Assembly (NCBI RefSeq): GCF_000337195.1
Contig: NZ_AOID01000035.1
Location: 1 to 50,159, forward strand
From: Natrinema versiforme JCM 10478
GTDB taxonomy: Archaea > Halobacteriota > Halobacteria > Halobacteriales > Natrialbaceae
DNA: 50,159 nucleotides
Direction of reading: 5' to 3'
How positions within the stretch are numbered: position 1 is the stretch's first letter; the number at the start of each line of letters is the position of its first letter. A program made the position numbers and the translations under genes. Shown here piece after piece: positions 41,899 through 46,084 of this stretch. The notes under the pieces are model-generated. The model ran no database searches, was not told the origin of the DNA, and saw nothing but the letters and a program-made list of their open reading frames with translations.

Positions 41899-43236
41899 AT
41901 GCACGGATCACACGCCACGGGGAGCCCGTACGCTCCCCACACGGAGGAGGACCGCACGGCGATGCTCGAGGCGGTCGACGCGGACACTGTCGAGGACCTC
42001 TTCGACATTCCCGCCGACGTCCGGTTCGAGGACGGTTTCGATATCGACGCGCGAACGGAGCGGGAGACGCGGCGGCTGGTTCGCTCGGTGCTCGGTCGCA
42101 ACGACGACCTGACCGAACTGCTCGGGCGCGGCCACTACGGCTACTACATCCCGTCGCTGGTCGACCATCTCGCGGACCGCTCGGAGTTTCTCACGTCTTA
42201 CACGCAGTACCAACCCGAGATCTCGCAGGGGTTCCTGCAGGCCCTGTTCGAGTACCAATCGCTGCTGGTCGAACTGACCGGCCTCGAGGTCGCGAACTGC
42301 TCGATGTACGACGCGGCGACGGCACTCGGCGAGGCCGCGACGCTGGCCGACCGCATCCGCGACACCACTGGCCACCGCGTGCTTGTCCCCGAACGCCTGC
42401 GCGCGGAACGGCAAAGCACCCTCGAGAACTACGTCGCCGGCACCGACCTCGCCGTCGAGACCTATCCGGTCGAGGACGGCAACGTCGATCTCGCGGCGCT
42501 CGAGGAAACGATCGACGAGGAGGTCGTCATGCTCTACGCCGAGAACCCCACGGTACGCGGGACGATCGAGGAGCACCTCGATGCGGTCGGCGACCTCGCC
42601 AACGACAACGACGCGCTCTTCGTCCTCGGCTCGGACCCGATCGCGCTCTCCGTGTTGCAGCGTCCTGCCGATGTCGGTGCCGATGTCGTCATCGGCGACG
42701 CGAGCGTGCTCGGCCTCCCGACGAGCTACGGGATGGGGCTAGGCCTGTTCGCGACGCGAGAGGACTACCTTCGGCAGGTTCCCGGCCGACTGGTCGGGGC
42801 CAGCGAGGACGCGACCGACCGCCGGGCGTTCACGCTCACCCTGCAGACCCGCGAACAGCACATCCGCCGGGAACGGGCGACGAGTAACATCTGTACGAAT
42901 CAGGCGTGGGTCGCGCTCCGGACTGCGATGCACGCCGCCGTCCTCGGCCCGAGCGGCATGGTCGACCTCGCGGAGCGCGACGTGCGGCGAGCGCGGGACC
43001 TCGCGGCCCGCCTCGACGGCATCGTCGGCGTGAAAGCGCCGGTCCACGATCGGCACCACCTCCGGGAGTTCGTCGCCCGCGTCGACCAGCCCGCGACGGC
43101 CGTCGCCGAGGACCTCGAGCGACGCGGCTTCGCGGTCCACGTCCTCGGGGACCACGAGATTCAAGTCTGCGTCGCCGGCGTCTCCGACGACCGAATCGAT
43201 CGATTCGCCGAGGCCTTCGCGGAGGTGGCGCGATGA
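41899..43236 (+). CDS. gcvPA: Glycine dehydrogenase (decarboxylating) subunit 1
   Basis: The 445-residue N-terminal half of the P protein, encoded separately as in archaea and many bacteria. '[19 protein letters not shown]' is the standard opening; '[20 protein letters not shown]' with '[20 protein letters not shown]' is strongly conserved. '[20 protein letters not shown]' and '[19 protein letters not shown]' follow. It lacks the PLP lysine, which is on GcvPB. ATG 41899 is chosen by homology; the frame to 41683 overlaps the divergent DUF2270 start. Its TGA overlaps the gcvPB ATG by 4 bp. Confidence 0.95.
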
Positions 43237-44753
43237 GCGACGACCGACCCGTCGGCGAGGCGAATTCGCGCTACGATCAGGCCAGATACATCGAGAACGG
43301 CGAGTACGAACCGCTGCTCTCGGCAAAGGATCTGACGCGAGTCGAGATCGGCGGCGGTAGCGGTGACGGTGGCGACGAGAGCGATGGCACCGGCAGCGAC
43401 GCCTCGCCGCTCCCCGACGACCTCACCCGCGACTCCCTCGAGCTTCCGGAACTCTCCGAACCCGAACTGGCCCGCCACTACACGCGGCTCTCCCAGATGA
43501 TCTACGGGATCGACAGCGGGCCGTACCCGCTGGGATCGTGTACGATGAAGTACAACCCGAAGTTCACCGAGGACGTGGCGGCGCTGCCCTCGGCCGCCGT
43601 CCACCCCGACCGGTCCGAGGGATCAGTTCAGGGCACTCTCGAGTTGCTGTACCGGCTGCAGGACTATCTGGGTCGGATCGGTGGGATGGACGCGGTGACG
43701 CTCCAGCCGCCCGCCGGCGCGGCCGGCGAGTTCGTCGGCATCCGCGTCGCCGCGGCCTACCACGAGCACAACGGCGAGGGCCACCGCGACGAGGTCATCG
43801 TCCCCGAGAGCGCCCACGGGACCAACTTTGCCAGCGCCGCGTTGGGCGGCTACGACGTCGTCTCCCTACCAAGCGACGACGAGGGGCGGGTCGATCTCGA
43901 GGCACTCGAGGCCGCCCTCAGCGAGAATACCGCGGCGCTCATGCTGACCAACCCGAACACGCTCGGCCTGTTCGAGCGCGACATCACCGAGATCGCCGAG
44001 ATGGTCCACGACGTCGGCGGCTTGCTCTACTACGACGGCGCGAACCTGAACGCCCTGCTCGGCCGCGCTCGGCCGGGCGATATGGGCTTCGACGTGATGC
44101 ACTACAACGTCCACAAGACGTTCGCGACGCCCCACGGCGGCGGCGGGCCGGGCGCGGGGCCGGTCGGCGTCGTCGACGACCTCGCCCCGTTCCTGCCCAC
44201 GCCTCGAGTCAGGGAGCGCGACGAAGGATCGAAGTCCAGCGATCCAGTCTACGAACGCTTCGAGCCCGAACACACCATCGGCAAGGTCCACGGATTCGAC
44301 GGCAACTGGCTGGTGCTGGTCAAGGCCTTCGCCTACATTGCGCGCCTCGGCGACGAGGGGCTGGCGGACGCGAGCGCCTCCGCGGTGCTCAACGCGAACT
44401 ACCTCGCCGAGCAGGTCGAGTACGACGTGCCGTACGGCCCGTTCCACCACGAGTTCGTCGCCAGCGCCGGCGGGCAGGACGCGGCCGACGTGGCAAAGCG
44501 GATGCTCGATTACGGGGTCCATCCGCCCACGACCAAGTGGCCCGAGATCGTCCCCGAGGCGCTGATGACCGAACCCACCGAGGTCGAGAGCAAGGCCACG
44601 CTCGACCGGCTCGCCGCCGCGTTCAACGCCGTCGCCGGCGAGGAGACGGAAACGCTCGAGCACGCGCCCGAACGGACCACCGCACGCCGGATCGATCAGA
44701 CGAGCGCCGCGCGGACCCCGCAGCTGTCGTGGCAAGCACTCGAGGACGAGTGA
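43233..44753 (+). CDS. gcvPB: Glycine dehydrogenase (decarboxylating) subunit 2
   Basis: The 506-residue C-terminal half of the P protein holds the PLP site: '[20 protein letters not shown]' with K295. '[14 protein letters not shown]' and '[20 protein letters not shown]' are the other hallmarks. An acidic Gly/Ser-rich insertion at residues ~40-60 is typical of haloarchaea. Together with GcvPA it decarboxylates glycine and passes the aminomethyl group to GcvH. The coupled ATGA start and the 15-bp gap to the next gene make this a probable three-gene transcript. Confidence 0.95.
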
Positions 44754-44768
44754 CCGATCTGTCGTGAG

Positions 44769-45800
44769 ATGACAACCGAGTCGTCGTTCCGCGCGGACTA
44801 CTGCGAGTCCGCCGCCGAGGAATACGCGATCGAACAGACCGTTGGAAACCGATTCTTGCGGGAGTACACCGACCTGACGCCGATGGCGGGCCCGAAAGCG
44901 GCCGCGATCGACGCGCTGGCCGAACGGGACGGTGCGGAGTCGTATCTCCTCGTCGAATGCAAGCGGAAGTACTCCTTTCGGGGGATCGGGCAGCTACTGC
45001 TGTACGACTACCTGTTTCGCCGCGACCGTGCGGCCGTCCGTCGCGCGTTCGCGGAGCGGGAGCGACCGTGGGACTCGAAACGCGCCGTCAGCGGCTTCGA
45101 AGCCCACGTTGCGGCGGACGGCGGCGATCGCCACCGGTATTATCCGAAGCCGGAAATCGCGACGGTGGATCGCCGACTCGTTCTCGGCGACCGCCCGTCC
45201 CACGGCTCGCTGCTCGTCGCCGCCTGCGATACTGACATCGATGTCTGCTGTGAGTCGTCCGATTGGTGGCCGATGACCGGCGAGGCGTTCGATCGAACGG
45301 TCGACCCAACCCCGGATATTGAGGCCTGTCTGTCCGAACTCAAGGGACGGCCAAAACTCGAGACGCCCGCCGAGGAAATCGTCGCGTGGAAGTTTCTAAC
45401 CGGTCCGCACGCACCGCCGGCGGTGAGAGCGAGCGAACGGGTTCGAGAGGTTCCCGTCGGAACGCGAATCTTCGGCGACGAAGCGGGGCGGTATCGCGCG
45501 GACCTCGTCGTGTATATCCCGGCTCGACGGACGTTTTACGTCGTCGAAGTGAAGTCCGAACCGGACGTGAGCGGCTTTCAGACGGCGCTCGGGCAGGCGG
45601 TTAGCTACGCGGCGCTGTTCAGACACGACTGGGGTCTCCCCGTCGATCGGGTCGTTCCCGTCGTCGCGATGGACACCGCGCCGGTACTAGCGAAAGCGTA
45701 CCGCGACGATCGGTACGGGACCTACAATGAGATGGTAGAACGCGCCGCGGAGACGACCGACGAAGCGGCGATCTGGTTCGAACGCTCGCTCGCGGTGTAA
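44769..45800 (+). CDS. Uncharacterised protein with two tandem PD-(D/E)XK-like cores
   Basis: I do not recognise a named family for this 343-residue protein. It contains two similar segments. The first has D48, then 'SYLLVECKRKYSFRGIGQLL' with E63 and K65, ending 'LLLYDYLFRRD'. The second has D245 ('RYRADLVVYIPARRTFYVVE'), E260 and K262, then 'QTALGQAVSYAALFRHD'. In both, D to E is 15 residues and E-x-K follows, with a later G-x-x-Q/G-Q and Y-x-x-L-F-R-x-D. That is the restriction-endonuclease-like PD-(D/E)XK pattern, seen twice, so an internal duplication is likely. Two Cys (C160, C161) and a Trp pair lie between. It starts 15 bp after gcvPB and may be co-transcribed. Substrate and role are unknown. 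Confidence 0.75.
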   Translation: MTTESSFRADYCESAAEEYAIEQTVGNRFLREYTDLTPMAGPKAAAIDALAERDGAESYLLVECKRKYSFRGIGQLLLYDYLFRRDRAAVRRAFAERERPWDSKRAVSGFEAHVAADGGDRHRYYPKPEIATVDRRLVLGDRPSHGSLLVAACDTDIDVCCESSDWWPMTGEAFDRTVDPTPDIEACLSELKGRPKLETPAEEIVAWKFLTGPHAPPAVRASERVREVPVGTRIFGDEAGRYRADLVVYIPARRTFYVVEVKSEPDVSGFQTALGQAVSYAALFRHDWGLPVDRVVPVVAMDTAPVLAKAYRDDRYGTYNEMVERAAETTDEAAIWFERSLAV

Positions 45801-45907
45801 CGGACACGCGACCGCTCACCCCTTGTTAGAATTCCGTACTCGAGCCGAGTTTGCGGTGGGGAAAATGGAGTCTGTCGGACGGCGAGAAAACCGGACGGGA
45901 CGACGCG

Positions 45908-46084
45908 CTACGCGGTGCTCGAGTCGACGGCGGTGCCGTTGTCACCGATGCGGACGAAGCCGTAGTCACAGTCCGGGCAGTGCCATTTGACCTTCTCGCC
46001 GAGGTGAAGCGTCGTGCTGGCTGCGCGGTAGAACGTCTTCTCGTCCCCGCAGTTGGGACACTCGTGGTCGAGTTCCAGAGCCAT
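45908..46084 (-). CDS. Small zinc-ribbon protein (DUF7838-like)
   Basis: The 58-residue protein has two cysteine pairs, 'ECPNCGDEKTFYRAASTTLH' and 'VKWHCPDCDYGFVRIGD', forming a zinc beta-ribbon. It is widespread among haloarchaea without known function; family name is from memory. ATG 46084 is preferred over the long frame to 46402. A GTTAAACTCG box about 27 nt upstream (near 46104-46114) fits a leaderless start. It is divergent from the cobalamin gene. Confidence 0.75.
   Translation of the reverse strand: MALELDHECPNCGDEKTFYRAASTTLHLGEKVKWHCPDCDYGFVRIGDNGTAVDSSTA

Follow-up and report, generated by a model that had tools for sequence, protein, structure and literature searches.

The window, the whole stretch of 50,159 nucleotides of Natrinema versiforme JCM 10478 (contig NZ_AOID01000035.1) analysed here, contains behind gcvPB an intact open reading frame with an ATG start, which encodes a 343-residue protein, hereafter X, comprising two putative PD-(D/E)XK cores, a middle region and a C-terminal tail (Table 1; G, L and C numbers are our handles for genomes, loci and contigs).

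Table 1. Features of the X locus, with positions in the window and the basis of each assignment
Feature	Position	Strand	Remarks
gcvPB (glycine decarboxylase subunit 2)	43233..44753	+	Flanks the insertion on the left; outside the system
X coding sequence	44769..45800	+	343-residue protein with two PD-(D/E)XK cores; starts 15 bases past the gcvPB stop
Core 1, residues 1-97	44769..45059	+	Profile match to core 2; residue invariance
Core 1, D48 to E63-x-K65	44910..44963	+	Candidate metal-binding site; conservation
Core 1 QxxxY, Q75-Y79	44991..45005	+	Motif conservation
Middle region, residues 98-197	45060..45359	+	Weaker conservation; conserved W101 and E111
Core 2, residues 200-300	45366..45668	+	AlphaFold2 topology; structural matches; HSDR_N_2 below cut-off; Cas4 4IC1 by profile
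Core 2, D245 to E260-x-K262	45501..45554	+	Candidate metal-binding site; conservation
Core 2 QxxxY, Q276-Y280	45594..45608	+	Motif conservation
C-terminal tail with YR-x-DRY (residues 311-316)	45669..45797	+	Conservation
58-residue zinc-ribbon protein	45908..46084	-	Right border of the insertion, convergent

The gcvPB gene is present in all 29 genomes of the genus, and X is absent from this locus in the other 28, as judged by DNA comparison and a profile search. The conserved block of the sister genomes resumes at about position 45901-45909 of the window, and in the nearest sister, G335 (gcvPB 92% identical), the distance from where the gcvPB match ends to the zinc-ribbon block is about 160 bases. 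The X gene of the window is thus a gain, in an intergenic spot that is variable and flanked by convergent genes. The original prediction placed it behind the gcvP genes, which is right as to position, but the adjacency is an accident of insertion and functionally uninformative, because sister genomes have an empty site. One of them, G443, encodes a different X (31% identical) elsewhere in its genome, its own gcvPB locus being X-free. The interval equivalent to window positions 44754-45907 varies strongly in length and content among the genus genomes, and several sisters do not show the downstream block within the 1.5 kb examined, so that other cargo may sit there.

The catalytic set D...(D/E)-x-K is present in both core 1 (D48, E63, K65) and core 2 (D245, E260, K262), at the positions originally predicted, and in both segments D-x14-E-x-K is followed by GQ and by Y-x-x-L-F-R-x-D (residues 79-86 and 280-287). 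The landmarks of core 1 are E4, E22, G26, D48, E63-x-K65, GQ 74-75, QxxxY 75-79 and RDR 85-87, all of which are invariant in six X proteins except G26, which is alanine in G443, while those of core 2 are E202, E227, G231, D245, E260-x-K262, GQ 275-276, QxxxY 276-280 and F284. The lack of helicase and target-recognition domains, noted before, agrees with the length of the protein and with a sub-cut-off HSDR_N_2 hit as its sole Pfam match.

The predicted internal duplication is borne out by a profile-profile alignment (HHalign; five, then six sequences) of residues 3-94 with residues 201-295 (E 1e-7, score 51.5), where the best of 200 column shuffles scores 22.7 and none reaches the observed score. 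This alignment pairs D48/D245, E63/E260, K65/K262, GQ 74-75/275-276 and Y79/Y280, and adds E22/E227 and G26/G231 to the correspondences listed earlier. The evidence for duplication is this profile match. The identical D-to-E spacing noted earlier is true of the window protein but peculiar to it, as the other five X proteins have D-x12-E in core 2; taken alone, it says nothing for a duplication. Residues Q75-xxx-Y79 and Q276-xxx-Y280 are QxxxY motifs of the RecB/HsdR type, which had been recognised only in part, as "G-x-x-Q or G-Q" followed by Y. RecB-like nucleases share this motif, which also occurs in HsdR and has an auxiliary role in second-strand cleavage; mutation of QxxxY in HsdR delays that step (PMC4454674). 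PD-(D/E)XK nucleases with QxxxY are a known kind. Two copies of the strict motif (hydrophobic-D...hh-E-h-K...QxxxY) are present in each of the six X proteins but in none of about 1015 other open reading frames of at least 200 residues from the studied loci.

Relatives of X were searched for by protein in 392 genomes of the order, by profile in 391 genomes of the class, in 125 genomes of the family and in a plasmid collection. X is rare and patchy, being found in 4 of the 391 haloarchaeal genomes (Natrinema versiforme and three besides) and in 2 of the 125 of the family, where the search added the X of G443 in the same genus. There are six distinct full-length X proteins, the other five of which are 31-32% identical to the window protein. 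Most copies are plasmid-borne, namely on Halobacterium salinarum PHS1 (intact) and pNRC100 (cut) and on two Halostella plasmids, one of which is common to Salinibaculum, and transposases, an integrase and fragments of restriction genes lie near the plasmid copies. The copy on pNRC100 of strain NRC-1 is interrupted by ISH8C (L010:6001-6681). Further matches with E values of 1e-2 to 1e-4 in sister genomes (L005, L006) and in the genome of the window itself (L002) were rejected, being short and partial, two with internal stops, and in unrelated frames. Searches of phages and viral contigs gave no relative of either X or Y (the partner described below). Neither a viral counterpart nor a complete defence system of known type lies beside X.

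A survey of gene neighbours in other haloarchaea, proposed with the original prediction, brought out a partner, hereafter Y, which lies within 0.65 kb of X in all five other copies. Y comprises about 180-192 residues with the consensus P..TTLFFWGA.A.GT ... W ... LW..H.VY.P and has no significant match in Pfam, NCBIfam, PADLOC or PDB. In G355 the two genes overlap by 4 bases (ATGA). In one Halostella copy Y lies 106 bases upstream of X, in the other 112 bases away and divergent, and in G443 about 0.5 kb downstream, while PHS1 carries an IS-broken remnant of Y about 0.65 kb downstream of X. The genome of the window has no match for Y. On a Halostella plasmid a PDDEXK_4 nuclease gene (L015:5962-7143) stands directly upstream of the Y-X pair, giving three restriction-endonuclease-like cores in a row.

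Y is found in 13 of the 392 genomes. Among 18 Y places that were read, five are beside X, four are directly beside other D...E-x-K...QxxxY proteins and one is near a helicase-restriction endonuclease (MTES_1575), while the remaining places have no adjoining nuclease of the PD-(D/E)XK fold. HsdR_N-like genes, among them Halar_0120 and all above the HSDR_N_2 cut-off, adjoin Y in DL31, G112 and G033, which is far above chance since the four genomes tested hold 0-2 HSDR_N_2 genes each, it being understood that the closely related arrangements of DL31 and G112 together count little more than one. A second two-core family is represented by WP_197535912 (P0003) on H. salinarum PHS2 (L092:3850-5546), which contains two D...E-x-K...QxxxY cores and is encoded divergently to the Y gene WP_231851045, thus sharing with X both the two cores per chain and the adjoining Y. 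Core 2 of P0003 resembles the sce7726 family, and homology of P0003 to X was rejected, as nothing is detectable beyond the core type (hhalign E 0.16). The pNRC200 copy of P0003 (L094) is cut by ISH8E, and a homologue on Natrialba magadii pNMAG02 has no Y nearby. In three genomes a zinc-ribbon gene of 96-98 residues, Z, precedes Y and overlaps its start (L125:7936-8226, L118:4814-5107 and L119:4803-5099), and PHS1 retains a remnant of Z (L009:7671-7766). Plasmid pNATPE01 of N. pellirubrum carries a Y split by ISNpe2 (L093:3619-5327), and G154 has the same split Y; disruption of the X/Y module by IS elements is thus repeated (ISH8C in X, ISNpe2 in Y).

The constant company of Y and X in the five other copies, down to the ATGA overlap in G355, and the mostly plasmid-borne state of both genes would suit a plasmid toxin-antitoxin or addiction pair, where X damages the DNA of its own host and Y restrains it. 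Such a pair appears unlikely, as the genome of the window lives with an intact catalytic X and no Y, the two genes are variously co-directional, divergent and convergent, and Y occurs without X in several genomes.

As to the two cores themselves, D48, E63, K65, Q75, Y79, D245, E260, K262, Q276 and Y280 show zero variation in the six full-length X proteins, and a comparison of the X genes of G443 and PHS1, which are 70% identical, gives a dN/dS of 0.22 for core 1, 0.32 for the middle region and 0.23 for core 2. Both cores are under purifying selection of similar constraint. The suggestion of a scaffold with one dead site finds no support in these results, since both residue sets are invariant and both halves are constrained. 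Degenerate forms of X do exist, as exemplified by a remote relative in G299 (20% identical), which has lost E63, K65, Y79, K262, Q276 and Y280; the loss hits both cores together, and this is the only relative with such loss. In G299 this gene and the next one, which has the same orientation and encodes a CHAT-domain protein, lie at L056:5547-8905. This caspase-like neighbour was considered as a link to suicide defence and rejected, as the CHAT family occurs in 364 of the 392 haloarchaeal genomes and the neighbourhood therefore says little.

An AlphaFold2 model of X built on three sequences has a mean pLDDT of 58.6. Core 2 is modelled with the elements H200-211, E223-229, E243-250, E255-261, H267-288 and E295-300 (pLDDT about 57-81), an alpha-beta-beta-beta-alpha-beta topology in the order of the PD-(D/E)XK fold, while residues 1-59 of core 1 reach a pLDDT of about 23-42 and fare no better when modelled alone. 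Superposition of the core 2 model (VIA-align 2) yields NucS 2vld (Z 7.9), EndoMS 5gke (7.8) and HsdR 3h1t (7.1), followed by AddAB (5.8), Hjc (5.5) and SduA (5.3), and also MGME1, RecE and Cas4; each Z is below 8 and modest alone, and the upper rows are nearly all of the PD-(D/E)XK superfamily. The core 2 profile matches Cas4 4IC1 (E 9.4e-4), and the only Pfam match of full-length X is HSDR_N_2 (PF13588; E 8.7e-4, residues 240-290), whose 19.8 bits lie below the gathering score of 25. Core 1 alone matches only NucS_C (PF01939; E 0.23), with 11.9 bits against a gathering score of 24, and no NucS_C match to core 2 was reported. A Foldseek search of the full model against the PDB returned only metallo-beta-lactamases (E 0.5-2), which were discarded as meaningless, since low confidence affects half of the model. 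Of the two restriction-endonuclease-like folds originally predicted, the second is hence supported by topology and structural superposition, and for this core the topology also bears on the refuting condition given with that prediction (D, E and K of a segment apart in the fold), while the assignment of core 1 as a nuclease core would follow from its homology to core 2 and its invariant residues.

This unevenness might indicate that X has a single cutting core, probably core 2, with core 1 as a DNA-binding or regulatory domain that keeps metal- or DNA-binding residues, as known families and folds match core 2 only and core 1 gives no match above noise. This is considered quite unlikely, for the five motif residues of core 1 are invariant in six diverged proteins and core 1 is constrained as strongly as core 2.

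X shares features with several known nucleases and differs from each. NucS/EndoMS (PF01939) aligns best with the core 2 model, over 95-97 residues, and has the RecB-like core in common with it, but contains one core per chain together with an N-terminal DNA-binding and dimerisation domain, where X has two cores. The N-terminal nuclease of HsdR has D-E-K and QxxxY as in X, but Type I HsdR contains an SF2 helicase and has HsdM/HsdS partners, which X does not, and no hsdM or hsdS gene lies beside X in the window. Cas4 and RecB-family exonucleases (4IC1, AddA, RecE, MGME1; fold Z 4-6) have E-x-K and QxxxY like X, while X possesses two cores and neither a helicase nor the conserved cysteine cluster of Cas4. 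Chains of Shedu SduA are among the fold matches of core 2 (Z 5.3). PADLOC-DB 2.0.0 gives no match for X, Y or P0003, and X homologues yield only LmuA (E 0.01-0.02). In the XisH-XisI pair (PF08814) a PD-(D/E)XK-like protein also comes with a small companion, but XisH is a single small core as opposed to the two of X, and Y matches neither XisI nor any Pfam family.

The likeness to NucS and EndoMS, the best structural matches of core 2, together with the weak NucS_C match of core 1 and the fact that no NucS was found in the genome of the window, raises the possibility that X serves the host chromosome in repair, as a nuclease of the NucS/Hjc kind. We regard this as very unlikely, since X is so rare and patchy, and 28 of the 29 genus genomes have their own NucS. 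The NucS/EndoMS gene of G335 is at L129:3897-4238, and in the genome of the window contig C51 begins exactly where the flank resumes, about 0.55 kb beyond NucS, the missing 4.8 kb being an assembly gap or a deletion. Replacement of NucS by X was rejected, as the apparent loss coincides with a contig end. X might instead take part in the transposition, excision or integration of mobile elements, as do TnsA and, for the cyanobacterial fdxN element, XisH: three of the six core 2 sequences match XisH weakly (best E 7.5e-4), and transposases, integrases and recombinases lie near several X copies. We consider this most improbable, as the matches are below cut-off, no integrase neighbour is common to the copies, and no repeats were recognised by eye at the window insertion.

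We favour, at somewhat better than even confidence, X as a two-site DNA nuclease of the RecB/HsdR-type PD-(D/E)XK kind, a fused dimer that destroys incoming or competing DNA. Duplication of an ancestral core gave the two cores of the chain, each of which may bind a divalent metal through D and E, use K, and cut one DNA strand. The chain would then act as a covalently fused dimer making double-strand breaks, by analogy with NucS/EndoMS and its two subunits; NucS acts as a dimer and makes double-strand breaks (PMC11109965). Since neither a helicase nor a recognisable target domain is part of X, recognition would have to depend on its middle region or C-terminal tail, on DNA structure or on Y. 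The target may be foreign or competing DNA such as plasmids and viruses, and, with lesser confidence, Y may recognise it or control X. The original prediction left the choice between DNA repair and defence; control of foreign DNA fits the rare, patchy and largely plasmid-borne distribution better than repair does, a defence role being inferred from distribution and nuclease type only. The X of the window either functions independently of Y or is being lost, the former being favoured by its intact frame and complete active sites. As this copy has no Y, it may do something other than the X-Y pairs do.

A wider reading, held tentatively and at less than even confidence, is that these genes form a modular system of haloarchaeal mobile elements, where Y (sometimes preceded by Z) is an adaptor or sensor providing recognition or control, and is combined with interchangeable RecB/HsdR-type nucleases, either single-core HsdR_N-like proteins or two unrelated two-core fused-dimer families including X, the X of the window having been freed of Y. 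That one partner gene recurs beside different nucleases suggests such a mobile DNA-control system of haloarchaea.

Most PD-(D/E)XK nucleases contain a single active site per chain, so that cutting both strands takes dimerisation or another, strand-specific partner. Neither a stand-alone protein with two complete cores nor a partner common to unrelated nucleases was found in Pfam, NCBIfam, PADLOC or the partial literature collection searched, which also yielded no paper on X or Y. With two complete sites kept in one small chain and nothing else attached, the X family lends itself well to asking whether double-strand cleavage by a single molecule is what a fused dimer gains. The plasmids of H. 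salinarum R1 carry both two-core types, one with an intact Y and one with an IS-broken Y, which makes the idea directly testable.
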